Origin: Owenia fusiformis
Taxonomy: Eukaryota > Annelida > Polychaeta > Sabellida > Oweniidae
Length of the DNA stretch: 64,000 nucleotides
NCBI GenBank assembly: GCA_903813345.2
Contig: CAIIXF020000011.1
Coordinates: 8,652,842-8,716,841, forward strand
Direction of reading: 5' to 3'
Shown one piece after another: positions 17,959 through 54,800 of the stretch. The number at the start of each line of letters is the position of its first letter. The stretch's first letter is position 1. The notes under the pieces were generated by a model. The model had not been told where the DNA came from. It made no database searches and saw only the letters and a program-made list of their open reading frames with translations. The position numbers and the translations under genes were made by a program.

Positions 17959-18449
17959 AGAGGAGGGTCAGGGGGAGGGAAAGGGAGAGGGACAGGGGAA
18001 GGGACGGGGGGAGGGGGAGAGGGGAGGAGGGAAAAGTGATTTACAGGGAGAGTTAAATTGGGTAAAGGGGTAGTTTGGGAGAGTTGTCCAAGGAAAGATA
18101 TGATCTATATAGACAGCTCTCCACAATTACTCCTGTAGCCAATGACCCAAACCCTGTAAGACATCTTCTTCCAATGGCAGGGAAAGTTCTCCCCCCCCAT
18201 CCTTCCCCTGTCCCTCCCCCTATCCCTCGCCCTATACCTCCCCCTAAAGGAGGGTCAGGAGGAGGGTCAGGGGGATGGACAGGGGATAGGGGGGAGAACT
18301 TTCCCTGCCATTGGAAGTAGGTGTCTTGCAGGGTTTGGGTCATTGGCTACAGGAGTAATTGTGGAGAGCTGTCTATATAGGTCATATCTTTCCTTGGACA
18401 ACTCTCCCAAACTACCCCTTTACCCAATTTGACTTTCCCTGTAAATCAC
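17959..18449. repeat. Palindrome with ~200-bp arms beside a G-rich block
   Basis: A purine-rich block (17959-18035) complements the preceding C-rich array. Next, 18036-18240 is mirrored by 18250-18449, with matches such as GTTTGGGAGAGTTGTCC and CTGTAGCCAATGACCCAAAC. The loop region repeats CCCTCCCCCT and its complement, so the whole could form one long cruciform. Confidence 0.85.
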
Positions 18450-27800: not shown

Positions 27801-30800
27801 AGGGATATTTCTACCTATGAAAATTTAGAACTGATTAGTTTTTGACATTCTGGATAAATGTTAAAACGGCCATTTTGGATTTTTCATCCTAAAATCTTGT
27901 CTGTCAAGGCTTGTCTACAGGTTTCCAGCCAAACCGTTTGAGGGATTCATTTGAAATTCTCAGGGATGTTTCTGCCTATAAAAGTTTATAACTCATTAGT
28001 TTTTCGGCATTCTGGGTAAATGTTAAGGTGGCCATTTTGGATTTTCTGTCCTAAAATCTTGTCTGATAAATGTTAAGGTGGCCATTTTGGATTTTCCGTC
28101 CTAAAATCTTGTCTGTCGAGGCTTGTCTACAGTTTCCAGCCAAACCGTTTGAAACTGATTCGTTTTTTGGCATTCTGGGTAAAAGTTAAGGTGGCCATTT
28201 TTGATATTACGTCCTAAATCATGTCTGTTAAGGCTTGTCTACAGGTTTCCAGCCAAACCGTTTGACGGATGCATTTGAAATTTTCAGGGATGTTTCTAAT
28301 ATTATAGTCCTCCCTAAACCATCATTCTGCAGAAATAGTCTTGCTACTTGTAGAGATTGTTTAGTGAACATTCAAGGCTATATCTCATGTATGACCAGAT
28401 CATGTGCAAATCTTCCAGCAGCTACAAAGTATCTACAATCTCTATTTTGCATTTGGACACCATTTATACATCAATATACTTAAAATCCCCATATCCCTGA
28501 TCCAAGCATAGGTTGAAATCCCCCTACCAGTTATCCCTGATGATCTTTGTTAATATTGTACTAAACTAAATCTCATTTAAGAGTGGTTGTGGAGAAATAT
28601 GGTAAATGAAAAAAAAATTGGCCTGAGAAAAAATGATATGGATGGTTTAAATCTGGCTGGCCTGCCAAAATGTCTAGGTTAAAAAATCCTTAATTCACGC
28701 ACTGGAATACTCTGCCTAGCTATGATCAATCTTTGATTTTGAAATTGATTGTAGCTTTATCAGTCAAATATCTCTTTGATTTAATGCCTTTGTTATCTGG
28801 CAGGGAAACTCCAAGGTCAGGATTATTTAAGATTTAGGCCGTTTCACCAAATAGCTTTTAATAAAAACTTTCTATTCCTGAACCTTGAAATGCAATGGCT
28901 TAATGATTGTTCTAATGACTATTCTCTGTGTACTAGATACATAGATGACTTGGAGAAGCGCTACCAGGCATACCTATATGATCAAGACTTGAGACCTGTA
29001 GATGAACTGGACCATGTTGAACGTGAAACATTCTCCACAGCTCTCCCTAACCCTGCAGAACAGCCTAGTAATAGAGAAAAGGGACTACCTGGGTAAGGCT
29101 TTAATTTACATATAATCTTATTGCATACAGAACTTATAATAGCTGGTTTTAAAAAGCACTGATCTTGTCTAATTATCCCATCGAACGAAGTTCGGAGGGA
29201 TATAGGGAATGCGTCCGTCTGTCCGTCCGTCCGTACGTCCGTCCGTCCGTCCGGGCAATAACTCAAATACCGTTGGCCCGATTTTATTCATATTTTTTTG
29301 TACACATATACCCTATGGGGGTAGAAGTTCTGCTTGAAAGCTGATTTTCAAAATGGCTGCTCATTTCAAAATGGCGGCCATTTTAGTGCCGATTTTACAG
29401 TAATTTAGGTGCAATATGTAAAACTGTAATAGCAATATGTTTTAAATGTAAAAAAATTATAAAGGACATTAATAAAGCTACTAATGTAGATATTAAAAAA
29501 GCACATGGCAGCCATCTTGAAAAACGGCGGCCTTTTCTCGTTATTTTACGATTTTTGCTGTAACTCGAAAAGTAGTAGAGCGATTTTGTTCATATTTGGT
29601 ATGTGAATACTATAAGCATGGCACACTGTCCTATGATAGTTTTGGTAGAAGGTGGCCATTTTGAAAAAAATTTGAAAAATGGCCGCCATTTTAACATATT
29701 TTACTATAACTCGAAAAGTAGTGACGCGATTTTGTTCATATTTGGTATGTGAATACTATAAGCATGGCACACTGTCTAAAGACACTTTTGGTAGAAGGTG
29801 GCCATTTTGAAAAATGGCCGCCATTTTAACGTATTTTACTATAACTCGAAAAGTAGTGGAGCGATTTTGTTTATATTTGGTATGTGAATACTAAAAGCAT
29901 GGCACACTGTCTAATGACACTTTTGGTAGAAGGTGGCCATTTTTAAAAATGGCCCCATTTTAACTTTATTTACTATAACTTGAAAAGTAGTGAAGCGATT
30001 TTGTTCATATTTGATTTGTGAATACTCATGAGCCTTGCACACTGTCTCGTGACACTTCGGATAGTGTGTTATTTTACAAGTACATGTGTGCGATTTTTCA
30101 AAAATTTTATAGGTGGCTTCTTAAAAGCATATTATTTCTTCTGATGACAACTTGGCTAGTGAGCAACCATTTTGAAAATGGTGGCCTTTGTGGTGTGTTG
30201 TTTTATGATATTTGCTATATATTTTGTTTGTAAAAATGCCAGCCATTTCTGTTCGATGGGATTCGCTACGCTTTGGCGTTGCCGTTGTTCTGGTTATATT
30301 CAAAAAAGTATACTCCATCATATGGAGTGGAACACTTTTCAAAGTCCCAAGACCAACTGATTTAATGTTAAATAATCCTGTATAGGTCCTCTATACAGCT
30401 TTTAATCAGTACATATACTTGTAAAATTCAGATCGTAAACTTGATAAAATAGGTATATATTGATGATTCTGCTTCCACAACATGTAACAATACTTACTAA
30501 ATATATGATGAATGCCATTCTCTGAAAGGAATTTATTATCATGAATTGTATAGTTTTTTCATGATGAGAAGGAAATAGTCCTAATTTTCTCATTCTGTTT
30601 TAGCACATACTTGTTGGATGACCCTGTTGGCAATGGTAGACGTAAATCTGAACATGTTATGCCATCTCGGGAGCGAGAAAGGTCAAGGTCTTCTCATGAT
30701 GCAAATATTCCAAGCTTATCTCGTGATAGAGATCAATCCCAATCATCTCGGGACAGAGAGAGGTCCCTGTCATCACGAGATAGAGAGAGGTCCCAGTCAT

Positions 30801-33800
30801 CACGAGACAGAGAGAGATCCCAACCATCTCGAGACAGAGAGAGATCCCATTCAGCCCGAGAGAGAGATGGACCTTCAAGGCAAAATGATAACATAGTGAG
30901 CCCAAGGGTTGGAGGAGCTATTATAAGGGATAGAACTGGAGATGCTTGGTAGGTTTCTATAGTTCCAGTCTATGGTAATAACTTATCATCCCATTGAAAC
31001 TCTAGTAGTATGAATATTGAGAAGCTGTCCATTCATCCATATGTTCATTTATCCATTTGTAAAGTTGTTTGACTGATAACCCTGATAACCCTACAAGCTT
31101 TACACTGTTTCAGGCCACCTAGAAAACGTGTAATTGATCCAATTCTGGATTATGATGAACCAAGTGCTAAAAGGTCAGCCCAAAGTCAAAATGCGGACTT
31201 CTTAGGTGAATGTAAAACCCTCGAGCAGTCCATGCGTCCCCCCAAGAGTCAAGCAAACATACAGATGGGATTAAATGAGGCCCAAATGTCTAAATTGCGC
31301 CAAATTGAGAAGTCTGTGAAGCAGCATAAGGAGACAGAGAACCCAAATGTGCCCTCTTCAGTGAAACGTATCATTGATGATACAATGAAGTCTTTAGTTA
31401 GCCAACCCCTACAGGGTGAAGACCTGTCCCATGTTATGGGTACAGCCATGTTGAAGATAGCAAAGGAGCTGCAGGTTTGTGCAAATTTCTGAGAAAACAA
31501 ACTACAGTATTCTCTCTAATGAGCTCACAATTTCAATGAGCACACATGCAACCTTTATGTTGAATATGTTGTCAAAAACACAGATTTTGAACATAAGAAA
31601 AACAAAATATTGATTGATGATTATATTTAATGCGAAGAAAGAAATACAGTAGCTGAAGAGAATGTAAACCTTAGTGGAAAAACTAATGAAAATTTTTTTT
31701 TTCGGAATATTTTTTTTCTCAATTTTTGATATCTGACACTTTATAAAGGACAGGTGGCGGTAAACCCCTCTTTTAGCCCCCCTACAAAACAAGTATATAT
31801 TGACATGGAATTGAAGAGGAAGTATGACTTATTACTTAAAATGTGATTTCTGAGAATTTTGACATTTGACCTTGACATTAGGGTGGTTTAAAGGTCAACT
31901 TTGAGAGATGCTATTTTTGTCAAAATTTTGCCATTTTCTAATACAAGAAATGAAAGCTATTGGCTTTATTTTCATTGTGACTGATAATAAGACATGTGAA
32001 TGGAAATAAAAATATTCTTAATAAATTCTCACGGGCAATTACAAGAAAATCTTGAGAATAAATCCCCATATGGGCATTTTTAGGGGGACTAAATTTTCCT
32101 GTTTCAAAAATGAATGTTCTTGTTGCCTTTTGAGACTCCAACAGTATCTTAAGCATGTTTTAAGAGTTGGGATGTGATTACTGATTATTGTTTTAATGCC
32201 CATGGGCAATTAGGATAAAATGACTGCAATTAAATGCACACAAGGGCACTTCCATGAGAATGGATTTTCTTATTTCAATTGCATCTCACCAGTTTTCTAA
32301 ACATGTTTGCCATATTCTAAATAGTTATAGGGTTACTTTTAATAAATGCCCATTGGCATTTGCTTTGGAATTTGAAATTAAATGTCTATATGGACACTTA
32401 ATTTATAGTTATTTGCCGGTTTGCAGTTCCCATATTTGAAACACAAATAATTCAGAGAAATCCTCTTTCAATATATATCATAAAATATAAGGCAGCATCA
32501 TGTATAAATGGCATGACACTCAAAGGATTGCTTAAAATTCTCTACTTATACACGATTTAGAAAAACACTTAGGCCATTCAAAGATGTTTTTATAATTAAT
32601 GTCACTAAATTCTATGTTTTCAGAAAAAACAAAATGTTCCCATGTACGCTGTACTTGTAATGCATATAAATGACAAAGGGAATTGTGATCTTGGATTATA
32701 TTGTAGTGAAATGAGTTCCAAGATTGATTAAAAACTATGTGTATATAGGCTTCAGTATTGTCTTAATTAACAAGGTCATCTGAATCAAGAGGTGTGTTAC
32801 TTGCCTTCCCACAGTGTGTTATTGTATTTTCACTATCAAATAATATAAAAAAAACTTTAAATAAATAAAGGTTTTGTAGTTTTTAATATAAGGCCCTTCA
32901 TCAGAATGCCAACATATAATTAATTTTGAATGGCCTAATCTGTACATGTAGTTATGTAGTGTACATTTATGCCCAGGTTAGCAGCCATATTGAAAACATA
33001 AACCAGTCAGCCTTATTTTCATCACAAAATTTAAGTTTTAGTGGTGAGCCCACACTCCCACAACAATGATATTTGCAGGGAAGCTACCTCACAGTCTCTG
33101 CATTATACAGTTTCAATATCTTTTTTGTGGGAGTTTGGGCTGATGGTTAAATTTTCAATGAAAGGGAATGCGCATGATGCTAAAACTTGATAACAAAGTG
33201 AACAAAAATGACAATGTTTTCCAGATTTGCATTAGTAAACTTCATATATAGCTGGATTTTGTTAATGTTCTACTCCGAATGCTTGTATGCTATATGTTCC
33301 ATATAATAAATTCTATATAATGATAAATTTTAATATTATTCTTAGGGTAAACATAGTGTGTACCCATATTCAGACAGTCTTGTGATAGGGGTTCTTACTG
33401 CCAATTTTTCAAAGAATCTGAAAACTAATGCCACTTTTTGAAATTGCACATTTCAAGAAAAAAGGTTTATCTACAATTTGCAATCGGTTTTAAAAGTAAA
33501 TGGAAGAATGAGTTTTTTGGAAAAAGTCTAAGTGGACCAACAGTCTGTTAAATGGACCTGTTCTTTGAATTTGGAAATTGCACTGTGCGCTCATTTAAGA
33601 GAATATGGTATGCTCAGATATAATACATTTGCCTTTCATATAGCTGTATTTATGTGCTTAGATAAATAATGTTACTGGAGCCTCCCTAAAATGCTTGAAT
33701 AAACCAATTTGTCAATGTACAAAAAACAAATCCAACATTTATTTTGAATATCCTTTGACATGTTCATTGTCGAGTACTCAATTCCTTTTAATTGTGCCAC

Positions 33801-36800
33801 GCATTTTCAAGATATTTCAGAGTTCGACCTTTATCATCGAGTCCTTTTTGGTTCACACAGTGAGCCTATGGGATCGACCAGGCGTCCGTTGGTTGGTCCG
33901 TCCGTCCGTCCGTTGGTCCGTCCGTCAACATTGGCCGCACAAATTAAAACTGCTATTCGGATTGAGTCATATCCACAGTCGTTTTATGCATATCCATGAT
34001 GCCTATTTGACCTATCATCGCCATTTCCCAAGTTCGCCCGGTTTCCGAGAAATTGCTGATTTTGACGTCAAAAAGTCAAGTTTTCTGTAAATACTAGATG
34101 CTTTGTTGAAGTAGAACTTTCAAATAACTTGTAGTAGTTGCTGTATATGCAACTTATGTCCTCTGAAGATTTCAAAGCTCTTGGAAATACAGTTTTTGGT
34201 GTTTACTCTATAAAATTTGACAAAAAGTAGGACTTGGTCATTTTCAGGAAACTTTCTTATGTATAAAGTCAATGGCAGGTTTTGTGATTGACAAGTTTCT
34301 CAAAGTTTGCCTTATACTTGATCATTTCTTGCAATGAATTACATCATAACTAGATTTAAGCATTCCCTACATATTGCTCAATATATGTCAGCATCAAATT
34401 TTGACAGTTTTTGAGATATTTGACGTCAAAAAACAGTAAAAATAGTTTATTTTTCAACTTGCTTCAATTTGACGAAATTTTTTTTGAAAATCATCTACAA
34501 GTAACCAGGAGTTCAAATCTGACATTAGTTTTAGGATTTGACCTTTACTTGACCTTCAGTGACCTTTAAAGGGTCAAAAAAGTTGATTTTCAAATTGATT
34601 TTTGGATGTAAATTTTGGTCAGCTTAATCACAAAATACCTTACTGAGCTCTAAATAAGTAAAATTTTCAAGGTCAAAGGTCATAAAACTAGGTCACACAA
34701 CTGTGCTGTCTAAGTTTCTCAAAGTTCAAGACTACAAATCCAAATCAATATTTTTGTTTGAAAGTCTGGATATACATTCCTCTGAAGGTTCCAAACTGTG
34801 TGAGCACAGGACCGTGGGTCCTATTTTTTTATTTATATATGGAACTTCCATACTGAACATTTCAAAATTCTAAAATGGTGAAAAGTTGTGTATTTTGTCT
34901 GTATATGTAGGTAAAATCTCTGATATTTTAAAGCTGGTTCAAGAAATTACACATTAAACATAAACAGTTTATTTTCATACCATCAAAAGTTGTTAAGATT
35001 GCTTTCCATTTGAAATGTCTATACCTATATTGGGATCCAGGCCACTTTGAGCTAAGCATCTGCTCTTCACTCAGCGATTACATACTCTTTTTATTACTGG
35101 CTTCTGGATCGAAAGGCTCTGACCAACAATCCACCATTGACCCAGTGCCAACAAATATTATACGTGTAAATGATTGCGTGCTCTTTTTATTACAGGCTTC
35201 TGGAGGGAAAGACTCTGACCAACAATCCACCATTGACCCAGTGCCAACAAATATCATACGTGTAAGCAAGCAAGACCCAAAGGTAAGGAGAAATAATGGC
35301 ATTTTATATGAATTTAAAATGAATTTTTGTATATAGCCTTTGATCCATCCCACAATTTTGAAATCTAGTAGGGCACATTTACTGAAAGTCACATTATGTT
35401 TGCTTTGTTTTCAAAGAATCAGTTTAACAATATACCATACATTTACCAAACATGTGCACATATAGCTCAAATAAAAAGAAGTTTCAGTGCATCTGGAAAT
35501 ACGTTGACATAATACACTGCAAAGCAGCACACAAGCCATTATGTTTGTTTAACCACTTCTTAAAATATGTCTTGTACACAGATCTTACCTTTCCTTAAAA
35601 TACAAAAGATTCGCTAAATTATTCAAAAGAAGTTCATTTGACCTGTTTAGTAACATCATTCACAATTGTTTATTCGCTTTTAAAAAATTAATGCAGACCA
35701 TATTCAGATTGACAGTGGAAATATGGTCGAACGTTTGACTGTGAACGAGCAATAAAGTACAGAATATTGAAGGAATAATTTTATAACTAACTGATCCATT
35801 CCCTCTTATGCAATGACCATATTGTCCTGCAAATTGTGAATTGCTTCTGCTTAAAGTATGTTCCACTTGAAAAACACAAAATCCAAATTACTCAAAAATC
35901 CTTAAACATTATGTGTAATAATTGATTAAATTACATAGAAAGAATACTTTGTAATTTCTTATCTGTGGAGTTGCATGGGAAACAAACATAATATTAGCTT
36001 TGTCTGGCACTGTACTCTGTCTGATGTATTTCCAGATCACTGGAGACACAGAACCTTGGGGAAAATACACATATATTCTGAAAGACATTTTAACTATGAA
36101 GTGCTCAAGGAAACGAGAAAAGGCTACATCAGTACTTGTATATAAGCTGACCAAGCAACTAAGACATTTAAATAAACATTATCAAAGAACTAGTAGTAGA
36201 CAATCTGAGAGTTCCACCTCAAAGTATCCATTATTCCCCCCAGTATCTATTGAGTCAATACACCCTAAACAGACAGATCCAAGATCAAAGGTCTATGATT
36301 CTAAATCCTTATGGGGTAAAGAAAAACATGTATCCACTGTACAGTTAGGTAAGGTTAGTAGCAGTAGAAAGTATAATGATAGTGAATTGGAAGATGGTGA
36401 GATTAGAATAGATAGTGATTTTAGATCAGATAGAAGGTATAGTAGAGAGCATAGTAGAGATAGAGCAGATGGTGAAATTAGGAGAGGAGATGGTGATACA
36501 AGATATAGCGGAGAACATAGTAAAGAGAGAACAGAAAGATCTAAAAGTCCAGATATAGGTAGTCACCAACAACAGTCAGAAAATGATGTCCCCAAAGTAA
36601 AGTTCTACATGCCAAAGCCTGCTGGGGTTACAGAAAAACAAAGTCCTCGCAAGGAAAAGTCAAAACCTGCGAGGGTGGAGAATGCAGATACAAGTTTGAT
36701 AACTGAGACAAACATATCAAACCTGCTGAAATGGTTTGGTGTGAACACAAAAGGAGAAAGGGTGACATCAACTGGTAAAGACAGGCGTGAAAAGATTCCA

Positions 36801-39800
36801 GGCACAGATCGAGAGAAACAAACAGAACCTGCTATCAATCCAGTCAATCAGATTCAGCAAAAGGATTCAACCCGCAAGCCAAAGAATGTTAAGAGTTTGA
36901 ATGTTACTCATAATGTACTTCAGGTATTCAATGTTAAAGATGGGCCACCTGACCAGGATGTATCAGATGCCAAGGTCTTACCAAACAGCCAGAATGTTAT
37001 GCCCCCGGTTCAGAATAGTCAACAAGTTCAATACACTAATGTAATGCCACACAGACAAATGGTATCACAAAGTCAAATGATGATAATGGGACAACACAAT
37101 AGGAATGAGCAAGGTCAAATGATAGTACAAAGGCCAATGTGGCCACAAAATCAAATGATGGCAAATCCACAAATGTCTCCTCAATGTCAAATGATGCCAT
37201 TTAGACAGATGACACATCAAAGTCAGAATAGACCTTTTGGACCAATGGGACCCCTTGGAACAATGGGACCCTCAGGACCCATGAGACCCCCTGGACCCAT
37301 GAGACCCCCTGGACCAATGGGACCCTCTGGACCAATGGCACCCCCTGGATCAATGGGACCCTCTGGACCAATGGGACCCCCTGGATCAATGGGACCCTCT
37401 GGACCAATAGGACCCCCTGGATCAATGGGACCCCCTGGAACAATGAGACCCCCTAGATCAATGGGACCCCCTGGAACAATGAGACCCTCTGGACCAGTTA
37501 ATTTACGAGGCAGATTGATACCTAATAAGCAAATGGCTTCACAACAAATTAGACCTCTTTTGAATATAAATGAACAAAGTAAATCTATGCAACAAGGACC
37601 AATGGGTCCCAAAGATGGAAATAGGTTCCCAGGACAAGTTAAACCAGGCATGGTAACTTCAAGGGCAGAAGCTATGGAAACAAAATCACAAATAGCATTC
37701 TTGAAGGAACAAAGAAAACATTATGACACCTTTCAGCAAGTGAAATATGAGTTCCTTAGATCAGGTGGAGGGGACAATGTGTTCAATAAGCTGAGTGAGG
37801 CTTTTTTCAAATTAGCATCCCATATCCAGGCTAGTGAGATAAAGCAAGCTTCAAGTCACCAAAATACAAAACTTTTGACTGTTTTAACTAAAGCCATGGA
37901 TATGCAGAAAGCAAATCCCAAAATTGCATTGAGGGCATTTAATAGGTATGTAACTAAAATCACTACTGCTTTGGAAGACTTCACAAATGATACCATATTG
38001 AAAAAAATGTTTAAAGATCTGGGCCCACTTGAACAGAAAAAAGCCATTGAGCTTGTATCAATTCAAGAAATGACTGAACTTGAATCACATTTGATCAAAT
38101 TACAACAACTGGACCAATCTGAGGAAAGTATTTCAAATAGAAAAAGAAAAGGGCTTGGGATGAAGGAGGAAAGCCTTTCAAAGAAACTGAAGGGATATAA
38201 TGAAACTGCCAACTTTGACCAAGAGTGCCAAGCTTTAAATGTAATGAAGAAGCAGGATATATCTGGAAAAACAAAAAGAGGGGTAAGAGCAGGGAAAAAT
38301 GTTCAAGAAAAAAGGAAGAAAAAAATGGCCACGAAACTACAAGAAAGTAATGAAACTGCCAAGTTTGGCCAAGAAGAATCAGTGTCAACTACAAATACCA
38401 GACCTGTTGTTCCTTTAATGGATGTGATACTCAACGCTGAAGACGTTCCTGTCCCTGGCAATAATTGCGACAGTGACACTTTAGAACTGCAGGAGAGGGA
38501 TATCAAGACTAACATTGGATTCAATCCAGCCCCTGCCAATGGAGGTAATAGTAACATTAATAGTAACATCAATACTGAGAATGTTGTTCCTTTGATGGGC
38601 TTAATTTTCAAGGAAGATGATATATCAGTTGCTGACGGGGAGGTTGGCAATGGTAGCCTGCCAGTAGAACTGAAGAGGAAGACTTTCAAAACCAAGAGGG
38701 AACCAACACACAACAATAAAGTTGTTCTTGCTGATGAGTGTGACAGAGACACTTTAGGACTGGAGAAGAGAAATGTAAAAACTAATGTGAAATTGGAATC
38801 CCCATCTGACAATGAAGATGATAGTAAAATTAATACTGAATGTGTTGTTCCTTTAATGGACATAATTGTCAAACCTAGACATGCAGATGATGAATGCCCT
38901 CCGAGAACTAAAAGAGAAGAAGTTGGAGAATACAAAAAAAGGAAGTTCTATATTTTACGATTAATTAGACAAAAGGGAAGTAAATGTATACCAACAACGA
39001 TGTTAAAGCCTTTTAGGAGTAGCTTTTCAAAGTTGCCCCCAGTAAAGCAAAAAATTGAAATCAAAAAGTGTTCAAAAAAGTATCCAAAACTTGCAGAAAT
39101 CCTTAGAGCATTTGAAGAACACACACAGGAGCAAATGAAAGATAAATCTCTGAGTGATACATCAACTTTAACAAGTAATAGATGCCTAGTTGATGACAAA
39201 CAAGAGTCTGATAGTCATTCTCCTAGTGAAAATACAAAGTTAACAGGAAAGGAAAAACAAACTGTTGAACCTTCTGTTCACCAAACTTTCAGCAATGATA
39301 ATGAAGATGATGATAACAATGAAGACAAAGAGGATGAAAGTCTAGATGGTGAATGCACTCAGAAAAAAGAAATTGGTGCAGAGAAAAAAATGAAGAAAAG
39401 AATGAAGCATAAGCTAAAGTTGTTCAATAGAAAAAGGTTTAAATGTTTAAAGTTCATAAATAGTGGTCATAGCATTCCAACTTCTAAATTAAGCCAGTTG
39501 GGGTATGCGTTTTCTAAGCTGGGTCCAACAAAGCAAGATATTGAAATTGACAGAGATTCAAAGATTCCAAATATGGCACCAATTCTGGAAGTATATATGA
39601 AACACAGAAAGATGAGATCTGAAATTATTTCAGATAGAGCAGATCATGAGGATATACCACAAGTTGAACCACAGTCTGTTGATGATAGTTTGTTGAAAGA
39701 ATCAGATGAGGGAAATGTCAAAATAAAGATAGAAACCCCATCAGACAATATTAACATTGATCACAATGAAGAGTCTGATAGTCATTTTCCTATTGAAAAT

Positions 39801-42800
39801 ACAGATTTAGGAGGAAAGAAAAAACAAACTGTTGAGCTTTCTGTTCACCAAATATTCAGCAATGATAATGATGATGATAACAATGAAAACATGGAGGCTG
39901 AAAGTCTAGATGGTGAATGCATTCAGAAAAAAGATTTTGTTAGAACTGAGAGAAGAATGAGGCAAAATGTGAATTTGTTCAATAGAAATAGGCATAAATG
40001 TTTAAAGTTCATAAATAGTGGTCATAGCATTCCATTTCATAAATTAAGCCAGTTGGGGTATGCATTTTCTAAACTTACTCCAACAAAGCAAAATATTGAA
40101 ATTGATAGCTATTCAAAGATTCCAAAAATGGCACCAATTCTAGAAGTATATATGAAACGCAGACAGATGAGATCTGAAGATATTTCAGATAAAGCAGATC
40201 ATGAGGATATACCGCAAGTTGAATCACAGTCTGTTGATGATATTTTGGTGGGAGAATCAGACAAGGGAAATGTCAAAATAAAAATGGAAACAACAATTGA
40301 CAATGGAGACAATATTAACATTAATGCAGAACAAATTGCGTCTCTAAATTGTGACTATGAAGATCATAGTAACAGTAATACTGAATGTGTTGTTCCTTTG
40401 ATGGACATCATTGTCAAGCCTAAGGAAGCATATGGTGAATGTTCTGAGAGAACACAAAGAAAAATAGATGTGAACTTGACTAAAATATATTATGATGTCA
40501 AGCACCAATGTTTAGAATATATTAATAAATATGGAAGTATTTCAAATACCAAGTTAAAACGTTTGAAGTATAGGTTTTCCCAGCTGACCCGAGTAAAGCA
40601 AAATAGTGAAATTAAAAAGTGTTCACAGGATCCTAAACTGGCTTTAATTCTTAAAGCATTTGAAGATTGCATACAAGTGCAAATGAGAGATAAGCCTCCG
40701 AGTGATACAACCACTGTAACAAGTAATAGATGCCTAGTTGATGACAAACAAGAGTCTGATAGTCATTCTCCTAGTGAAAATACAGAGTTAGTTGGAAAGA
40801 AAAAACAAACTGTTGAACCTTCTGTTCACCAAACTTTCAGCAATGATAATGAAGATGATGATAACAATGAAGACAAGGAGGATGAAAGTCTAGATGGTGA
40901 ATGCACTCAGAAAAAAGAAATTGATGCAGAGAAAAAAATGAAGAAAAGAATTAATTTGTTCATTAAAAGAAGGCGTCAATATGGAAAGTCTCTGAAACAA
41001 GGTCGTAGCATTTCAAAATTAAATGCTAAGTTGAAACAGTTGGAGGATGCGTTTTCTAAACTGACTCCAACAATGCAAAATCATGAAATTGACAAATATG
41101 CAAAGCTTCCAAAAATGGCACCAATTTTAAAAGTATATATGAAATGCAAACAGATGAAATCTGAAAGTATTCTGGATAAAGCAGATCATGAGGATATACC
41201 ACACGTTGAATCACAGTCTGTTGATGATATTTTGCTGAGAGAATCAGATGAGGGAAATGTCAAAATAAAGATTGAAACCCCATCAGACAATATTAACATT
41301 GATCACAATGAAGAGTCTGATAGTAATTCTCCTAGTGAAAATACAGAGTTAGGAGGAAAGGAAAAACAAACTGTTGTCTCTTCAGTACACCGGTCATTCA
41401 GTAATGATAATGTTAATAATAATGAAGACACAGAGACTGTAAGTCTCCATGGTGAATGCATTCAGAAAAATGAATTTGATGCAAAGAAAAAAAAGAAGAA
41501 AAATTTGTTCTTAAATAGAAAGCGTCAATGTGTGAAGTTTATAAAACGTGGTCATAGCATTCCAACTTCTAAATTAAAACAGTTGGAGGATGCGTTTTCT
41601 AAGCTGGGTCCATCAAAGCAAAATTATGAAATTGACAGATATTCAAAGTGTCCAAAAATGGCACCAATTTTAAAAGTATATATGAAATGCAAACAGATGA
41701 AATCTGAAGATATTTCAGATAGAGCAGATCATGAGGATATACCAAACGTTGAATCACAGTCTGTTGATGAAAGTTTGCTGAAAGAATCAGATGAGGGAAA
41801 TGTCAAAATAAAAATAGAAACAGCATCTGACAATGACGTTGAATCACAGTCTGTTGATGATATTTTGCTTCGAGAATCAGATGAGGGAAATGTCAAAAGG
41901 AAAATAGAAACAACATCTGACAATGAAGACAATATGAACATTAATGCAGAACAAATTGTGTCTCTAAATGCAGAATGCAAACAGATGGAATGTGAAGAGG
42001 GTCCAGATGATGAAACCTTTGATGAAACAGAAGCAACTCCTGAAGGTGATATCAAAAAGGATTTTGCCAGTGGTTCACCTGTAGGAACTGAAACTGCAAA
42101 AGGTGGCATTAACATGTTTTTACAACAAGGCAAAGATGTTCCTCTGAGTGATTCATCTAATGTTAGTGCACCTTTAAGCGATATCAATGTGAAGACTGGC
42201 AGTGATTATCCCATCGAAGCTACTGAAGGAAGTGAATGTCAAACGGTTGAGGTTTCTGTGAAACCTGACTTTGAATTATCTGATTTTGAAAAGAATAAAC
42301 AAGTCTATACACAGATGGAGGAGAAACAATCCAAAGCAACTATTGATGACAAGTGTGATTTTGAGCATTCAGAGGATGAAGTGAATGCACGTAAATATGT
42401 AGAGCGACCTGGATTGTGGAAAACGCTCGCAATCTTAAGACATGAAATATGCGGTAATCCTATTGAAAAGTCAGATTTAGGAGCATTTGAAAATGAAGTT
42501 AAAGAGAAACTTTGTGTTGATGAAAGAGCTGTTGTTGAGCAAATGCGCATCAGTAGTGAAGAAACTGTTGTTGAGGAAATGGGCACTGATAAAGAAGCAG
42601 CTTTAGCTGTTGAGGAAATGGGCTCTGACAATGGAGATACTATAGCTGTTAAAGACAGTGAAGTTGTTGAGCAAATGCGCATCAGTAGTGAAGAAACTGT
42701 TGTTGAGGAAATGGGCACTGATAAAGAAGCAGCTTTAGCTGTTGAGGAACTGGGCTCTAACAATGGAGATACTATAGCTGTTAAAGACAGTGAAGTTGTT

Positions 42801-45800
42801 GAGCAAATGCGCATCAGTAGTGAAGAAATTGTTGTTGAGGAAATGGGCACTGATAAAGAAGCAGCTTTAGCTGTTGAGGAAATGGGCTCTGACAATGGAG
42901 ATACTATAGCTGTTAAAGACAGTGAAGTTGTTGAGCAAATGCGCATCAGTAGTAAAGAAATTGTTGTTGAGGAAATGGGCACTGATAAAGAAGCAGCTTT
43001 AGCTGTTGAGGAAATGGGCTCTAACAATGGAGATACTATAGCTGTTAAAGACAGTGAAGTTGTTGAGCAAATGCGCATCAGTAGTGAAGAAACTGTTGTT
43101 GAGGAAATGGGCACTGATAAAGAAGCAGCTTTAGCTGTTGAGGAAATGGGCTCTGACAATGGAGATACTATAGCTGTTAAAGACAGTGAAGTTGTTGAGC
43201 AAATGCGCATCAGTAGTGAAGAAACTGTTGTTGAGGAAATGGGCACTGATAAAGAAGCAGCTTTAGCTGTTGAGGAAATGGGCTCTGACAATGGAGATAC
43301 TATAGTTGTTAAGGACAGTGAAGTTGTTGAGCAAATGCGCATCAGTAGTGAAGAAACTGTTGTTGAGGAAATGGGCACTGATAAAGAAGCAGCTTTAGCT
43401 GTTGAGGAAATGGGCTCTGACAATGGAGATACTATAGTTGTTAAGGACAGTGAAGTTGTTGAGCAAATGCGCATCAGTAGTGAAGAAACTGTTGTTGAGG
43501 AAATGGGCACTGATAAAGAAGCAGCTTTAGCTGATAGGGAACTGGGCTCTGACAATGAAGATGCTATAGCTGATAAGGAACTGGCCATTGACAATGTAGG
43601 CAGTAAAGTTGTTGGGGGACTGGACACCAATGGTGAACAAACTGTTATTGTTGTTGAGGAAATGGGTACTGATAAAGAAGGAGCTTTAGCTGTTGGGGAA
43701 CAGGGCATTGATAATGAAGATGCTATTGTTGTTAAAGAACTGAACATTGACAATGTCGGCAGTGAGGTTGTTGGGGGACTGGACACCAATAGTGAACAAA
43801 CTGTTGTAGTTGTTGTTGAGGAAATGGGCCCTGATAAAGAAGGAGCTTTAGCTGTTGGGGAACAGGGCATTGATAATGAAGATGCTATTGTTGTTAAAGA
43901 ACTGAACATTGACAATGTCGGCAGTGAGGTTGTTGGGGGACTGGACACCAATAGTGAACAAACTGTTGTAGTTGTTGTTGAGGAAATGGGCCGTGATAAA
44001 GAAGGAGCTTTAGCTGTTGGGGAACAAGGCATTGATAATGAAGAAACTATTGTGGTTGGGGAACAGGACTCTGACAATGAAGATGCTATTGCTGTGAAAG
44101 AACTGGGCATTGACAATGTAGGCAGTGAAATTGGGGGACTGGACACCAATGGTGAACAATCTGATGTTGTTGAGGAATTGGGCTCTGACAATGAAGATGC
44201 TATAGCTGTTAGGGAACTGGGCATTGACCAAGTATGCAGTAAAGTTGTTGGGGCACTGGACACCAACAATGAAGAAACTGTTGTGGTTGGGGAACAGCGT
44301 ATTGATAAAAAAGGAGCTTTAGCTGTTGGGGAACAGGGCATTGATAATGAAGAAACTATTGTGGTTTGGGAACAGGTTTCTGATAATGAAGATGCTATTG
44401 CTGTGAAAGACCTGGGCACTGACAGTGGAGGCACTGAAGTTGTTGGGGAACAGGGCACTGACAATCAAGAAACTGTAACTGTTGAGGAACTTAGCACTGA
44501 CAAAGAAGCTCTAGATGATAATATAATTGCTTTAGTTGTTGAGGAACAAGACAATACGACTGCTGTAGAAAAGACTGGTGTAATTGAGTGGATGTTAGTG
44601 GATGAGGAGGATAATGAGGGAGTTGAATGTGAATTGACTTTGGAGGAAGAGGATATTAACCTTGACTCATCAGATGATTAAAATGCTTACTTTAAAAACA
44701 TAGGAGTGCAATGACATGTTTTACTAAGAGGAGGGAAAACCCCAGAGTTTAAGAGTTAAAAGATGTAATTACGTCTCTTGCGTACCACCTTCGTTTGCGC
44801 AAATTCTCACCAGTTTTCGAATATAACACGTCATTGTTTAATCAATGTAGGCATATTCCTTTCACAAGCTATGATATTGGTTAATATGCTCATAATTTGA
44901 AGCATGTTTAGAACATTTTGAAACCACTATGTTTGTCTGTTGATTTTACCAATCAGCACGATGTCATCTCAATACAGATTTACATTATAAGGTCTGTCAT
45001 CTTTGAACTGTGGGGTTATTCCCCCTCTTTGTTTTACTAAACTATTTAAAATTCCAAAAGGTTCTTGTTTGCTATTTAAAGCAGAAGCTTCAGCCTGAGT
45101 TCTAAGGCACATAAGAATCCTGTGCAATAATTCACCTATAGCATTTATCAACTTAACAGTATTATTAAAATAATCAACTTGAAACTTTACAAGGGATTTA
45201 TCTGATGTCAAACTGAGCATCAATCATTTCAATGCTTAATATTTATATGAATATATGCAAGTAGTTATTCATACAAGGTCTTAAGTTTCCATTTTTTAAC
45301 CATGCTTAGTTATCTGATAGAGCATGGTCATACTGTGGTCTGATTGGCCAGAAAGTGGTAATGCATGACTAGCTGTGTGGATGATTGTGGGGTTGATGAC
45401 TTAGAAAATGTGCTGAGACAGGATATGAGCAAAATTAGTATATGAGTATGAAGGGTGCATTCATGCATGCAAACTTGTAGTTTAAATGTATAGAAGAGGT
45501 TGTAGAGTGGATGGCAATATATAACTTAAAAGCAGATTGGAGTCTTGCTAGAAATACAGTTACTCTGCCATTTGCAAGCACATGTAATAAGTTCAATCAA
45601 CCTACGAGTCAATTACTTTCAGATCGCCCCTCATATTTTATACAGAAAAAATCATAGCAATCAAGCAATAGTCAATGAAAGAGCAAGTTTATCAGTTTGT
45701 ATCAATTTATCTCTATGGCACTATATGCATATGTTATGACTCAAGGAACAATTATTGTTGTTATGACTCAAGGAACAATTATTGTTATGACTCAAGGGAC

Positions 45801-48800
45801 AAGACATAACATCAAGTTAATTATTAACCCTGTACTGCCTTATGTAATATGACTTGAATTTTGACAACAATATCAGGGGCATAGCCAGCTTTCAGTCAGG
45901 GGGGTAGGGATCGCCCAAAAATTTCGGTTATCAGTTAGGGGGGTGCGATCACCAAAAATTGGCAGTTTTCAGTCAGGTGGGGGGGGGGTGCGATTGTGTC
46001 ATAAACAAACCAAATGATGAAGATTTCATTTGAATTTAACAAAAAGCGATGTAACTTCCTTCAAAATTGAGCTAGAAGCTTCAAATTAAAAGCATTTTAA
46101 AGCTCCCCCCCTGGCTATGCCTATGAATATATAGACTTATTTGGCTATTAACTTGCTGTGATGCACTCTGGGAGCCAACCCGCCTTGAACACTTTAACTT
46201 TCCTAAGGCGCTGGCCATTCAGACCAAAACTATATGTAAAACAACGGGAGCTGGACTCTCAATGATTATTCGACTACAGCAACACAGAGATCAGATCTAA
46301 TGTAATTGCATGTTTGTATATTTAATTTAAACGCAGTTAAGACTTGAGATTAATTTGATTTACATTTTGGTTTAAGTCGTCTAAATTCTGAGTCAGTTCA
46401 GAAGATTGTAACCACCAGAAATGGGGTTACAACACATGCCTGTATGTGTATATGTATTATAAGTATAGAAAAAATACAGTAGATTGTGTAGATTTATATA
46501 TAAATTACTTATGTCACTTATATTATTAGTGTGTCACTTATAGAGAAGGCCATACAAATCCTCCAAAACTGATAAGCTGCAAAAATAACCCTTTGTTTTT
46601 GTCCTATAGAAAAATGCATACAAAAAGGCAATACATCATTTGAAAAGTGAGATTCTATTCTGCACCATGGAATTCTTGATTTGGTACTTCATGAGAGATC
46701 AAATATTGAATATTTTGCTTAGAGTTGTCCACTGTTGTTTCCATATCTTATCCATAGAGATAGAAATACACCTCTGCCTTATTCAAGAGATATATACTTG
46801 AAAAACTATGATATCCAAATTCTTTCATAGGTTAAATATTTCATTATGCAGTGCAGTAAATCATATAAGCAATGACATTGAATTGTGAAGACACTTTCAA
46901 GAGGATCGGAGAACTGAAATTGTAAAACATCAATTTTAAGTTTTTATAACACTTTTTCAAAGTTGTCTTGTGCTGCTGGGTGAGAGGGTTCGCAGGTAGG
47001 CTCCATATAAATCTTGTCATCGAGATTCCAGGAAAACCACTTACCTGTTAGACAGGTGCCAAGATCTCATTAGGTTTTTGGCATGCTGGATAAATTACTT
47101 GGTTGCAATTTTAAAGGACAAGTCTTGGTTTGGAGAACAGTCTCATGGGCTAATAATTTCTTAATGAAAAAAATAGAAATTTCACCCAAATTATACCTCT
47201 TTACAATACCACAATATCCGGTTACATGAGACTATTCAAAAAATCTACAAGATGTAAAAATATCAAAATTTTCCAAAGCAGGCGTAACATGCAGTTAGAC
47301 TGATGAACTTTGTTCTCCAAACAGAGAATAGTGCTTTTTCTATAAAAAACAATAACAATACTTGGATCTTTAATGTTAGGGAGGTACATGTACATGAGCA
47401 TGTAGTATTTCGACCCCCATGGATTACTATCCCACTCTCAATTCACTTTCCAGGGGACCTAATTACAATTATTTTCTGTTCAATTGGTAAAGTAAACAGT
47501 ACAAATGTGAGAACTATAATCAACAGAGGACCATAGTTATACACGTTCATATGCACTTTTAAAAACATATAACTTAACATCCCTTTTATCTCTATTTTCA
47601 GTGGAAGGTCCCTCTACTTTTCCAATTCTTTGATAAATTTGTCGCCCTTGACCACTCAGATCCACTTTTTTACGTGAAACTACGGAAACAGAGCAAGTAA
47701 GTAAATTGAATTGCAATATCACATTTTTAAAGACATATTACTCAGGCCAGTAGCAAGCTTTTGCCAAGGGAGGTTTTCCTTTTGAAAAATTCTAGGTGGG
47801 TTCACATTTGACAACTTTGGTACAGAAATCGCCCAAATCACTTGAAAAATGCTCAGAATGGAGAAAAGCTGCATGATTTTGAATGAATTTTTAGCTGGGG
47901 AGAGGAGGGGGGTTGGTTTGAACTCCCCCTTGCTACAGGGCTGTACTACTAATTAAGTTTGCTTCAATTATTTTCATTAGAAAGTATACAAATGAAATGT
48001 CATGATTTAGTGATACATTGGGCACAATTGCATATGTAACATGGTCAATGTTTCTTTTATGAAGAAATACTTAGATTCTTGTACAGTCAGCATTGATGAG
48101 TTTTACTTGAAACCACACCATACATTTCAATTTATATGATCTGGGAATGTGATAAATGATTTATAGTCTCTGGTAGTACATTTTACACAGCAGGGTTTTC
48201 TGCCTGTGTGACACATCAAAATCGTTCCATATGAATTTTTTGTCTGAATGCTTTGTAACTAAGCAGTTAACCTCTTGACTAGCAAGAGTGACGAGATTTC
48301 TTGTCATCGAAGAAATGACCCTGAGACCTAGAGTGATGAGATAATATGTCCCAGAATTTTAGAGCTTTGGAGGTTAAATCAGCTGTGTTACCCTAACCAG
48401 TATGAAGTTTAATTAATAATATTCATTTACTTTGTAGTGTTGTATATATGAAACTTAAAAGTGCAAAAGAAGTTGATGAACTGTTGAGAAAACATCATGT
48501 AAGTATAAAGTTTGTGTAATCATATAGTTTGTGCTATCATACAGTTTATGTGATCATATAGTCTGTGCAATCATACAGTTTGTGCAATCATACAGTTTGT
48601 GCAATCAGGCAGCTTGTGCAATCATACAGTTTTAACAATCATATAGTTTGTGCAATCGTACAGTTTGTGCAATCATACAGTTTGTGCAATCAGACAGCTT
48701 GTGCAATCATACAGTTTTAACAATCATATAGTTTGTACAATCATACAGTTTGTGCAATCATATAGTTCGTGCAATCATACAGTTTGTGCAACCATACAGT

Positions 48801-51800
48801 TTGTGTGATCAGACAGCTTGTGCAATCATACAGTTTTAACAATCATATAGTTAGTGCAATCATACAGTTTGTGCAATCATATATTTTTTGCAACCAGACA
48901 GTTTGTGCAATCATATAGTTTGTGCAATTGTACAGTTTGTGCAATCATACAGTTTGTGCAATCATACTATTTAGTGGCAATAATGCAGAGTTTCACTCTG
49001 CCTGTACAGATCCCTTGAGCATACACACATTAGAACAGATACATGTAATGGTCAATTTGAACAGACACACATTGTCAATTTTAAGATTAGTGTCAGTACA
49101 GTTAGAAAACACTCTTAAAAGTCAATTTGTAACTGCATTTAATCATTTGACTTCTGACAATACCCTAATAATATATGTATGTGGCATATGTTACAAATTC
49201 TTACAACTTCCAATAACTTAACAAATACTGTTCTGTTTAGACTGCCTTCAATTTTTTCTAAATCCTCTACAAGTTCTCAGAAGTTCAAATCTGACTTTAG
49301 ATTTGAGATTTGACCTTCAATGGTGTTCTTAAGGTCAAAAAGGTCTTTTCAACTTGCTTCAAATGAACTAAATGTATTTCAAAATCATCTACAAGTTTGC
49401 AGAAGTTCAAATCTGACTTTAGGTTTGACATCTGACCCTCTCAAGGTAAAAAAAGGTCAACATTTTTTTCAACTTGCTTTACATTTACCAAACTTTTTTA
49501 GGTGGTGACATTTTGTCATGTTAATGCCTTGTCTCATTAAGCAGAAGCCAGTCTCAGATTGATATGTAGTCCCTGTACTTCTAATTGTTTTGTTTTAGGC
49601 AAATCCAATCCAATACAAAGGGGTAAAGTTGAACATAAGCATGGCTTCAAAGGATGACTTTATGGTACGTCCCACCCCTAGTGTGAGCTCAGGCCCAGCA
49701 ATAGCAGAGAGCAGCCAAGCCTCCAAGCAGGGAGGTGTTGTCTCACCCAATGTATTTCCACTATACATGAAGGCGAAGGGAACTATGGTGAGTTCAAACT
49801 GTGTTCATACCTATAAATGGGAAACTTAATTGTAATTCTAGAGATTTATTTTATTTAGAATTGTATATATATACATTGATGGAAAAATAGATATGGAGAA
49901 TATCCAGCAGTTGTGTACATTTACTGTAAATGTATTCTTTTAGCATCTATGGCAAAACTGATCTGCCATCATTTGATTAAAAAATGTAGATTGCATTGCA
50001 TACTACTTCATATAGCTATACTTCTTTATTTATCTTTTATTGATTTTGAGCAAATAAAATAAAAAACATGTACATACTCAGCTATTTACCAAAAATATGT
50101 CTTATTTCATTTAGGGCAAATTGTAAAAACCCGGGAAAAGGGTTTTACAAAAACCGATCGGTATAACACTGCACTCGCCAAAAGATTTAAGGCATATTTT
50201 AGTGACTGGGGTTCTAGGAGTATTGGTATTGTAAAACTGCAATCGTGATTACACCTATTTTTCAAACTGGGTTAAAACCTTAGGTGCCTTTCCAAAACAA
50301 CTGGTGTAATTCCAGCAATTCTGACCTGCAAAAAGTGTGAATGTGCATTTCTATTTGTCAACTAAAATCTTTGGATGTCCCTGAGTAAAGATGCTGATAC
50401 TATAAGTTATTGAATGCAATACAGGATATATTTTGCTCAAGAAATTCTGTATTGGAACGAGACGAAGTCGAGACAGAATATATACTGATGATCAAGGGGG
50501 ACAATCTCATTAGCAATACAGACTGGTACAGCACAAAAACTGACCAATCAAAGAGCTTCAGTTCATGTTCACATCTTGTATTTTATATCCTTTTTATTAT
50601 TATATTTTATTCTTGTCTTACAGGAAAGGATTTATAACTGACTAGTTTAACATCAAACTGATTGAGAGAATTTACACGTCATGTCATTTTACTTTCAGTC
50701 TAGCCCTTGTAGCATTCGGAATTTCTTTGTTAATCAAATCGGCACCTGTATTGTGGAGAAGAAATGGTGCAATAGATCAGTCAGGTTAGTAGAAATTGTG
50801 ACTTATTGTTATAGTCTCCAAAACTTTTGTGTACTGTGATCCACTGTCAGTGATCGGTGGTCAGCGTCTTCAAAATATCACTTCCTTGAGCATATACTGT
50901 TTCATAATATTTTGCTTGTCTGCTAGCTGGTGTACAGTTTTTTTGCTGAATACAAGAAACTTGTGATTAAAATCATCCCCAAACCACTGAATCAGATTCA
51001 GCTCTCACTAATAGTAAATTACTGTTACAGATATGCCAAGGTGAACTTTGAAAGAAGAGAAGACCGGAATGCCGTATTTACTAAATTCGTAAGTATTTCA
51101 GAATTAAATAACTTGGGAATTTTAGAGTCTTCTAGAAAAAGATTTATGGGGTAATATGTTGAACACATTGGTGAGAAAATATAGTATAAGTTTGTTATAT
51201 TTTCAGGGCAAGGTAGTGCATATTCAGCACCAGGAGTATGAAGTCAGCGTAGAGAACTTTGACAAGAGTGCTACAACTGAAAAGCAGGTAGGTCAGGCCC
51301 ATTTGTCAAAGGTTTCTGGAATTATCATTTGAATTGTGAAGTTTAATTGTCTTTCACTATATTACCCTTGTCATACCTAAAGACACCACTCCTCAAAGAA
51401 CTTTGTCAATCCCCTTATGAAACAACATACAGCACTGTATTCTGAATGTGAATATGTTTTAGCTACAAAATGTTTGGTGTTCTAAACACTTAAACGACAT
51501 ACATTTTTTTAATGTTTATTTACTGTATCTTTTGTGATATTATATTTTCAGAGCAAACAATCACAGAATTCAAGAAAGCCTGAAACTACTGTGACTACTG
51601 GATCTAGGTCTGGTCATACCCCCAGGTCAGGCCCTATTGTCCCCCTCATGTCAGGCTCTGTTTCCGCCCCCAGAACAGAAGATAGGGCCAACTCTAATTT
51701 AGGGCAAAACACTCCAAAACTTGGTGGTGGTCCCAATGCTGAGTCGAAGATGGCTGGAGGAGGGAAATATGACTTATATGTTATGGGGCCACTGAATGTG

Positions 51801-54800
51801 AGTAGTAGCCATTCCATAGGCTATAATGGCGAAATGCTCTTATTATTAGTATGTCTATCAAACATATTCTCTAAGAGTACTCTTTATTAGTATGTCAATC
51901 AATCATATACTCTAAGAGTACTCTTTATTAGTATGTCAATCAAACATATTCTCTAAGAGTACTCTTTATTAGTATGTCAATCAAACATATACTCTAATAG
52001 TCCTCTTTATTAGTATGTCAATCAAACATATTCTCTAAGAGAACTCTTTATTAGTATGTCAATCAAACATATACTCTAAGAGTACTCTTTATTAGTATGT
52101 CAATCAAACATATTCTCTAAGAGTACTCTTTATTAGTATGTCAATCAAACATATATTCTAAAAGTACTCTTTATTAGTATATCAATCAAACATATGTTCT
52201 AAGAGTACTCTTTATTAGTATGTCAATCAAACATATACTCTAAGAGTACTCTTTATTAGTATGTCAATCAAACATATTCTCTAAGAGTACTCTTTATTAG
52301 TATGTCAATCAAACATATATTCTAAAAGTACTCTTTATTATCCCATCGAACGAAGTTCGGAGGGATATAGGGAACGCCTCCGTCCGTCCGTCCGTCCGTC
52401 CGTACGTACGTCCGTACGTACGTCCGTCTGTCCGTCCGTCCGGGCAATAACTCAAATACCGTTCGCCCGATTTTATTCATATTTTGTACACATATACCCT
52501 ATGGGGGTAGAAGTTCTGCTCGAAAGCCAATTTTCAAAATGGCCGCTCATTTAAAAATGGCGGCCATTTTAGTGCCGATTTTACAGTAATTTAGGTGCAA
52601 TATGTAAAACTGTAATAGCAATATGTTTTAAATGTAAAAAAATTATATAGGACATTAATAAAGCTGGAAATGTAGATATTAAAAAAGCACATGGCAGCCA
52701 TCTTGAAAAATGGCGGCCTTTACTCGTTGTTTTACGATTTTTCCTGTAACTCGAAAAGTGGTAGAGCGATTTTGTTCATATTTGGTATGTGAATACGTAT
52801 AAGCATGGCACACTGTCCAATGACACTTTTGGTAGAGGGCGGTCATTTTTCAAAATGGCCGCCATTTTAACGTATTTTACTATAACTCGAAAAGTAGTGG
52901 AGCGATTTTTTTCATATTCGGTATGTGAATACTGTAAGCATGGGACACTGTCTAATGACACTTTTGTTTGAAGGTGGCCATTTTGAAAAATGGCGGACAT
53001 TTTGAAAAATGGCTGCCATTTTGATAAATGGCTGCCATTTTAACTTATTTTACTATAACTCGAAAAGTAGTGGAGCGATTTTGTTCATATTTGGTACGTG
53101 AATACGTATAAGCATGGCACACTGTCTAATGACACTTTTGGTAGAAGGCGGCCATTTTTCAAAATGGCCGCCATTTTAACGTATTTTACTATAACTGGAA
53201 AAGTAGTGGAGCGATTTTGTTCATATTTGGTATGTGAATACTATAAGCATGGCACACTGTCTAATGAGACTTTTGGTAGAAGGCGGCCATTTTGAAAAAT
53301 GGCCGCCATTTTAACGTATTTTACTATAACTCGAAAAGTAGTAGAGCGATTTTGTTCATATTTGGTATGTGAATATTATAAGCATGGCACACTGTCTTAT
53401 GACACTTTTGGTAGAAGGTGCCCGTTTTGAAAAATGTTCGATGGGATTCGCTACGCTTTGGCGTTGCCGTTGTTCTGGTTAGTATATCAATCAAACATAT
53501 GTTCTAAGAGTACTCTTTATTAGTATGTCAATCAAACATATTCTCTAAGAGAACTCTTTATTAGTATGTCAATCAAACATATACTCTAAGAGTACTCTTT
53601 ATTAGTATGTCAATCAAACATATTCTCTAAGAGTACTCTTTATTAGTATGTCAATCAAACATATATTCTAAAAGTACTCTTTATTAGTATATCAATCAAA
53701 CATATGTTCTAAGAGTACTCTTTATTAGTATGTCAATCAAACATATATTCTAAAAGTACTCTTTATTAGTATATCAATCAAACATATGTTCTAAGAGTAC
53801 TCTTTATTAGTATGTCAATCAAACATATATTCTAAAAGTACTCTTTATTAGTATATCAATCAAACATATGTTCTAAGAGTACTCTTTATTAGTATGTCAA
53901 TCAAACATATTCTTCTTAAATAGAACATAACACACACAGCCTTTGAATCATCTGACATGAGTGTTCCCAAGTGTATCAAATGAAGCCATGTCCTATGAAA
54001 CTATCTGAAGGTTTTCAAATTAACCATGAAGCAAAGAAATGAGACATTACAATGTATTTGGACAGGCATATGGCTGAATTGATTATTTTCTACTTTCCAT
54101 TCAGGTGAGCACAAGTGAACTGAGGAAGATATTTGAGAAGTTTGGCTCTATGACAATAGCAAGACGTTGGGGAAGACAGCAGGATAAGTTTGCCCATGTA
54201 CTATTTGAGACACAGGAGGGGAGAGACCTCGTCTTTAAGCAACATGTAAGTTCATATACACCATGGTACAGGTGACCGGAAAAAAAGGAGACCATTGAAG
54301 TAATCAATTTCTCCTAAACTAGACAAGTGCCATCAATGAAATTTTGCATACACTGGAACAGTTATATGGAAATTTGTTACTGAAGGTTTCAATACAAGCA
54401 TTCAACTGGTTCAGGAGCTATGATCATTTACATAACATGCTCCAAATAGGCACAATTGAGACCAACGCAGAGTTGGATTCATATGGCAAACTACCCTTAC
54501 ATGTTCTGCCCTCTATGGCATTATTATGGCATTACATATAGCAGTGATTGCCTTCTTTAGGTCAACAATAGTCTGAGGATTGTTTTGGTATAGATTGTCT
54601 TTCAAATATCCATACAAAAAGAAATCAGCAGGATTCAAGTCTAGGCTGTAATGGCAATGAAGGGTTATCTGACATGTGGTTCATCATCCTGTTGCCAAAG
54701 TGCTGATTTACCAAATCTTAAGAGTCACTTTAGGTATTGGGCATAGTGCCATGTTACTAAAACCACTATATGGCACAATTAAATCCCATATGAAAACCAA

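Follow-up and report, generated by a model that had tools for sequence, protein, structure and literature searches.

An alternative last exon usually shortens its protein or exchanges one short tail for another. In titin, inclusion of TTN exon 48 brings in a stop codon and yields the truncated Novex-3 isoform of ~700 kDa (PMC5852582, in the available excerpt), and in the ELAV-regulated genes ewg and nrg the use of an upstream 3' end versus splicing onward gives different C-termini (PMC8904962, likewise an excerpt). Here we describe a comparable arrangement predicted in a 64,000-nucleotide stretch of the genome of the annelid Owenia fusiformis (hereafter the window; contig CAIIXF020000011.1, C11 below, C11:8652842-8716841), from an assembly of 498.26 Mb in 525 contigs, with large contigs seen at 35–62 Mb. 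An 8.6-kb open frame, the giant frame, lies there within an intron of a gene (the host gene) predicted to encode an RNA-binding protein with RNA recognition motif (RRM)-like domains, and on balance we lean toward the view that it is an alternative terminal exon of that gene, similar to titin Novex-3.

Like Novex-3, the giant frame would be an intronic alternative exon with its own stop, leaving the N-terminal part common and removing the C-terminal domains (PMC5852582, excerpt). Unlike in titin, the alternative product would not be shorter but about three times as large as the RRM form (itself an incomplete model), use of the exon is predicted, the surrounding gene encodes a predicted RNA-binding protein, and the tail appears to be an orphan. 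As in the alternative last exons of ewg and nrg, 3'-end choice would change the C-terminus (PMC8904962, excerpt), whereas, unlike terminal exons of that type, this one would carry 2,881 codons of coding content. Literature searches returned no paper matching "giant exon" with "RNA recognition motif" and none for "alternative last exon" with "lacking the RRM" and "RNA-binding protein", both being tests of narrow wording and not proof of absence. To our knowledge, 2,881 codons is exceptional for an alternative last exon.

Two further comparisons are instructive. The giant exon of ankyrin-G and ankyrin-B is also single, very large, and subject to choice, and adds a long unstructured stretch; it is internal, with the rest of the protein following, whereas the giant exon here would be terminal. 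Proteins of the FUS/EWS/TAF15 type combine a SYGQ-like low-complexity N-terminus with RRM domains and RS/RD-rich stretches. The host gene likewise has a SYGQ-like N-terminus, RRM-like domains, and RS/RD-rich stretches; its repeat domain and weak RRMs give no ground for placing it there, zinc finger and RGG features not having been sought.

Coding character of the giant frame

The frame is open on the plus strand from 35955 to 44681 (2,908 codons stop to stop). From the AG at 36034-36035 onward, it comprises 2,881 codons plus a stop (36036–44681, 8,646 nt), as an earlier note on this DNA had proposed, and exons 1–6 of the host gene joined to 36036 give a protein of 3,600 amino acids ending at the stop at 44681. 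At the intronic stop frequency of 0.0616 per codon, an open run of this length has a log10 probability near −80, a rough figure because repeats make the codons non-independent; 183 and 479 stops interrupt the two remaining forward frames.

Three duplicated block pairs within the frame, 81%–83% identical in DNA, differ by nine gaps (6, 3, and 9; 6, 3, 3, and 15; 6 and 6), all multiples of three, and contain zero stops versus 4.3, 3.4, and 2.0 expected from random substitution (product of the no-stop probabilities, 4.6e-5). These gap lengths and the lack of stops in diverged blocks bear out the earlier view of the frame as a real coding unit, and we regard it with good confidence as genuine coding sequence. 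For four module sets of the frame, pooled ratios of nonsynonymous to synonymous differences (pN/pS) were 0.80, 0.62, 0.59, and 0.49, several single module pairs exceeded 1 (e.g., H2/H6 at 1.74 and V2/V4 at 2.86), and substitutions between duplicated blocks were about equal across the three codon positions, with no third-position bias. Coding status is thus supported by frame preservation between diverged repeats and not by strong amino-acid constraint, which is modest here: the frame stays open while the sequence evolves freely. Low-complexity scaffolds likewise keep their frame open and evolve freely.

Upstream exons and the acceptor at 36036

The host gene lies on the plus strand, as do all of the exons and repeats given below, and begins with an ATG at 23791 and has its predicted stop at 60258, as judged from the spliced frame and exon chaining. 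Its first coding exon (exon 2, 23791–24897) is open from the ATG to a phase-0 donor at 24897 and encodes a low-complexity region rich in S, Y, G, N, and Q, after which a repeat domain begins that we call the YK repeat; on this exon, Pfam gave only a sub-threshold match to Suf (18.5 versus 24.7 bits). The repeat domain continues in exon 3 (25893–25993) and exon 4 (28937–29092), both defined by splice sites and frame and both ranked first by the exon scan. Exon 5 (30604–30948, by splice sites and frame) is RS/RD-rich, exon 5b (31114–31474) ends in phase 0, and exon 6 (35196–35282) is a symmetric 87-bp exon of phase 0-0 with the top donor score of eight scored. Joined, the six exons from 23791 to 35282 give 2,157 nt and 719 codons without a stop, ending in phase 0 at 35282, and a PDB sequence search with this 719-residue upstream half returned no match.

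The earlier note had placed the phase-0 end of exon 6 at 35282, with acceptors 36036 and 47602 both in phase, and was right in coordinates and phases. Its location of the switch at exon 6 stands insofar as that donor is in phase; this is not the sole usable donor, however, since the donors of exon 2 (24897) and exon 5b (31474) are in phase 0 as well. Because exon 6 is symmetric and exon 5b could splice straight to 36036, the giant form may skip exon 6 and its putative RRM part, and the product would then be 3,571 residues long. In the exon scan of 31480–36030, exon 6 scored 29.3 against 7.3 for the next candidate, and the best candidates in two control introns reached 7.9 and 8.2. Directly upstream of exon 6, at 35100–35170, lies a partial tandem duplicate of it, which looks like a dead duplicate exon, since its acceptor is TG instead of AG and, by eye, it has no counterpart of the exon 6 donor.

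Set beside eight other host-gene acceptors, the acceptor at 36036 ranks fourth of nine (score 4.49). Intronic AGs as good as this one number 16 of 707, which gives an expectation of 0.16 in the usable 141-base interval and 0.05 in phase. Under the long-frame codon model, 35955–36035 scores −14.8 bits, 36036–36095 scores −1.1, and values beyond are positive; upstream of 36036, then, the frame is non-coding in character, and the first 20 codons after it are neutral or at most weakly coding-like. An alternative last exon appears to be the most economical reading of the giant frame, and we put it at somewhat better than even, because the frame ceases to look non-coding at an in-phase acceptor of ordinary strength, because exon 6 is the only standout exon candidate in 31480–36030, and because the RS-like stretch that opens the giant protein resembles exon 5 in character on direct reading. 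What the sequence shows is the frame, its phases, the quality of the acceptor, and the coding evolution of the long frame; splice use, the poly(A) site, the choice of form, and the protein's role we infer. Within the long frame, the top donor-like site (score 5.69) lies at 36348, 313 bases past the acceptor, and its use in a cassette exon would break the frame of exon 7.

Were the giant frame a terminal exon, transcripts would take one of two paths. On the first, exon 6 (or exon 5b) would be spliced to 36036, with cleavage at a weak poly(A) site beyond 44681 and a transcript end at ~44.7–45.2 kb; on the second, transcription would continue through the giant exon and exon 6 would be spliced to 47602, giving a protein with RRM-like domains. 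ATTAAA occurs within 44672–47600 at 44677, 45164, and 46085, and the copy at 45164–45169 (plus strand) is a candidate weak poly(A) signal of the giant exon, identified by motif. A weak site suits a regulated intronic 3' end and no site at all equally well. The giant product would join a SYGNQ-rich, repeat-containing, RS-like N-terminal half to a repeat-rich helical and acidic tail, and since the low-complexity half would be common to both products, the giant form could take part in the same assemblies as a scaffold or compete there with the RNA-binding form. The fuller picture, in which one gene makes two proteins with a common prion-like/RS half, an RNA-binding form and a lineage-specific giant scaffold or competitor isoform with a 2,881-residue tail, is put forward tentatively, as possible rather than probable.

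Content and relatives of the predicted giant protein

From 36036, the frame encodes, in order, an RS-like, DGEI-containing stretch, an M/Q-rich stretch, GPM/GPS repeats, a helical segment, six modules, and an acidic region. The collagen-like GPM/GPS repeats correspond to an 18-bp tandem repeat of 14.4 copies at 37238–37496, and the Pfam Collagen model matched residues 411–468 of the frame under its gathering score (20.9 versus 27.2 bits). Alignment and structure prediction delimit six diverged 60-aa helical modules, H1–H6, with acidic linkers, at 38937–41699. The 60-aa module is predicted to form four helices, with a mean predicted local distance difference test score (pLDDT) of 73.2; compared with PDB folds, it had 19 matches listed, none at E ≤ 0.001, and the best, to the RbcX fold, had E ≥ 3.7 and were taken as chance. 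A 132-bp tandem array of 7.9 copies with 97% matches, encoding 44-aa acidic repeats, occupies 42531–43576 (tandem-repeat finding, as for the GPM/GPS repeats). A 161-aa helical piece folds poorly in prediction (pLDDT 56.7) and was not used further; its three weak matches (E 0.35–0.83), two of them glutathione-transferase-like by eye, were set aside as chance.

Pfam and NCBIfam returned nothing above cut-off for the giant frame or its pieces, and the six PDB sequence matches to the frame (E 0.0029–1) all fall on the GPM-repeat part, at residues 402–489. The species' own genome was searched with the whole giant frame and with two unique pieces of it, the helical modules and acidic repeats not being queried one by one. 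Besides itself, the whole frame found four stretches that match its GPM-repeat part, with 16 of 989 candidates scored, so that repeats elsewhere could be missed; the one stretch of the four that was inspected (L006) is collagen-like. The two unique pieces found only themselves below E 0.001. These searches gave no indication of a transposon-derived frame or a retrocopy, no further copies having been found in the genome beyond the GPM-repeat matches. As far as searches of the own genome, Pfam, NCBIfam, and the PDB reach, the giant tail thus appears to be an orphan.

The predicted form with RRM-like domains

Acceptor 47602 is in phase with exon 6, and in the joined translation 47602–47696, 48438–48498, and 49599–49787 carry the frame on. 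Exon 7 (47602–47696; acceptor 5.46, donor 4.69) would hold the second part of an RRM-like pattern, exon 8 (48438–48498) keeps the frame, and exon 9 (49599–49787, from exon chaining and frame) would hold the end of the pattern and a linker. Exons 7 and 8 are placed by splice sites and phase, and the 35282-to-47602 join of the RRM form is predicted. Exon chaining adds predicted exons at 51207–51287, 51552–51797, 54105–54245 (RRM-like), 56413–56499, 57521–57805, and 59974–60258. The best chain stops at 60258; the two ranked below it have other ends and scores close to its own. Between 49787 and 51207 the chain probably lacks one or more exons. A stretch at ~51030–51090 looks coding by eye and is absent from the chain, and directly after exon 8, at 48500–48970, a short imperfect repeat "caatcatacagtttgtg" occurs with variants (by eye).

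Two claims of the earlier note fared unevenly here, namely that the exon 6/7 join completes a first RRM ("RRM1") and that the choice of acceptor replaces all RNA-binding domains. By eye, the elements across exons 6–9 follow the order strand, helix, strand, strand, helix, strand, and the frame swap is in phase. Pfam, however, finds no RRM in the spliced 85-aa and 109-aa "RRM1" pieces, none of the four PDB matches to the 109-aa piece (E up to 10) carries an RRM name, and a third RRM-like piece reached 20.0 bits with Pfam RRM_1, below the gathering score of 20.7. The RRM labels are therefore weak and not confirmed, the strand/helix pattern being RRM-like and the Pfam evidence absent or borderline.

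Alternative explanations

Several observations weigh against the giant frame being a terminal exon of the host gene. The splice-site scores come from hand-entered matrices. The exon codon model is negative for both 36036–36095 (−4.3) and 36096–36155 (−4.9), and among 4,006 overlapping stop-free intronic 60-mers, the share scoring at least as high as 36036–36095 is 9% with the long-frame model and 18% with the exon model. An in-frame ATG with adequate start context stands at 36096, and the codon test is not decisive between a start at 36036 and one at 36096. The exon scan put three of four known exons first, exon 7 not among them, and exon chaining started at 47500 gave best chains that begin at 49599 and omit exons 7 and 8. 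AATAAA is absent from 44672–47600, versus 1.27 per kb in introns of the window. A CpG-rich stretch lies at ~33.4–34.2 kb, 2 kb upstream of the long frame, and only three of five control genes carry the promoter sign whose lack before the frame is discussed next.

Foremost among the rivals, unlikely in our judgment and yet to be taken seriously, is a separate, essentially single-exon gene nested in the intron on the same strand, starting at ATG 36096 from a promoter of its own upstream of it, the acceptor at 36036 being a chance site or joining a non-coding 5' exon. Nested intron genes are common. The long-frame codon score is first positive at this ATG, which on this test fits nearly as well as 36036. 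The exon scan would miss a non-coding first exon, and the CpG-rich stretch lies at ~33.4–34.2 kb. Set against this are the expectation of only ~0.05 in-phase acceptors this good by chance, the lack of any genome relative found that would make the frame a retrocopy, and the absence of AATAAA from 44672–47600. CpG is also low across the long frame, and the 750 bases that precede it contain no peak, which speaks weakly against a promoter there. As a control, 16 of 30 chaperonin loci were examined, five of which match from profile position 1–13; an upstream peak (0.7 in a 400-base window within 1.5 kb upstream) was found at three of these five N-terminal loci (L027, L029, and L033, not L028 or L038), and a sixth locus, L030, matching from position 23, had none. 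With the peak present in only three of five control genes, the CpG argument carries little weight.

An alternative that we hold to be improbable joins exons 1–6 and the giant exon into one gene and assigns the exons from 47602 (or 49599) to a second, with no switch between them. It would explain why Pfam sees no RRM across the exon 6/exon 7 join, why chaining omits exons 7 and 8, and why the exon scan does not place exon 7 first. Against it, the phases match at 35282/47602/48438/49599, where the joined reading is uninterrupted and shows an RRM-like pattern, and acceptor 47602 outscores 36036 (5.46 versus 4.49). The omission of exons 7 and 8 from the chain led us to lower our confidence in the terminal exon slightly and to raise that in two genes by a similarly small step. 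Less probable still is a real splice to 36036 that serves mainly as an autoregulatory brake on the RNA-binding form, with the giant protein rarely made. The weak poly(A) signals after the giant exon and the precedent of pcf11 and cstf3, in which intronic polyadenylation gives truncated isoforms that reduce activity (PMC8904962, excerpt), might suggest it; that the frame has stayed open in repeats that have diverged speaks instead for the importance of the protein.

Genomic neighborhood

The repeat domain of exons 2–4 recurs twice more on this contig (30% and 25% identity). One of these places (L010, C11:7997387-7997677) has a 319-codon open stretch and is 30% identical. The other, on the minus strand 10–16 kb to the left of the window, is an RS-rich open stretch of 1,844 codons (C11:8637246-8642777; L011, L013, and L014) that holds several copies of the domain, as counted by eye. 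By eye, this stretch may also be followed by a related C-terminal exon, for which tblastn gave no match there, and tblastn with the RRM part of the host gene found nothing near the stretch at E ≤ 0.1. As the neighbor points away from the host gene, the two may be head-to-head paralogs, the neighbor with another giant exon. With such a neighbor, large, RS-rich, and carrying this repeat domain, a giant RRM-less isoform of the host gene is less strange.

Within the window, a minus-strand open stretch of 192 codons rich in S, Y, T, and Q (2584–3159) is possibly an upstream exon of the minus-strand neighbor. At 17350–18100 lies a GC-rich, proline-coding repeat in which several frames are open on both strands, and GC skew is −0.30 at 16001–18000. 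CpG is depleted over much of the gene body, from ~17000 to 61000 and beyond, with CpG-rich interruptions and a rise near 61000, a pattern that looks like a gene-body methylation domain. Following this rise, beyond the window, stands a 586-codon frame (L019, 8719647–8721404) that we take to be Frizzled-like.

Implications

If the giant frame is indeed an alternative terminal exon, 3'-end choice would replace the RNA-binding half of a protein with an orphan tail close to 2,900 residues long. We know of few domain swaps from 3'-end choice that would be as large, and what would set this one apart is the size of the exon, its orphan nature, and the removal of predicted RNA-binding domains. The two products, one with RNA-binding domains and one lacking them, would then form a natural pair in which the low-complexity N-terminus could be studied alone.

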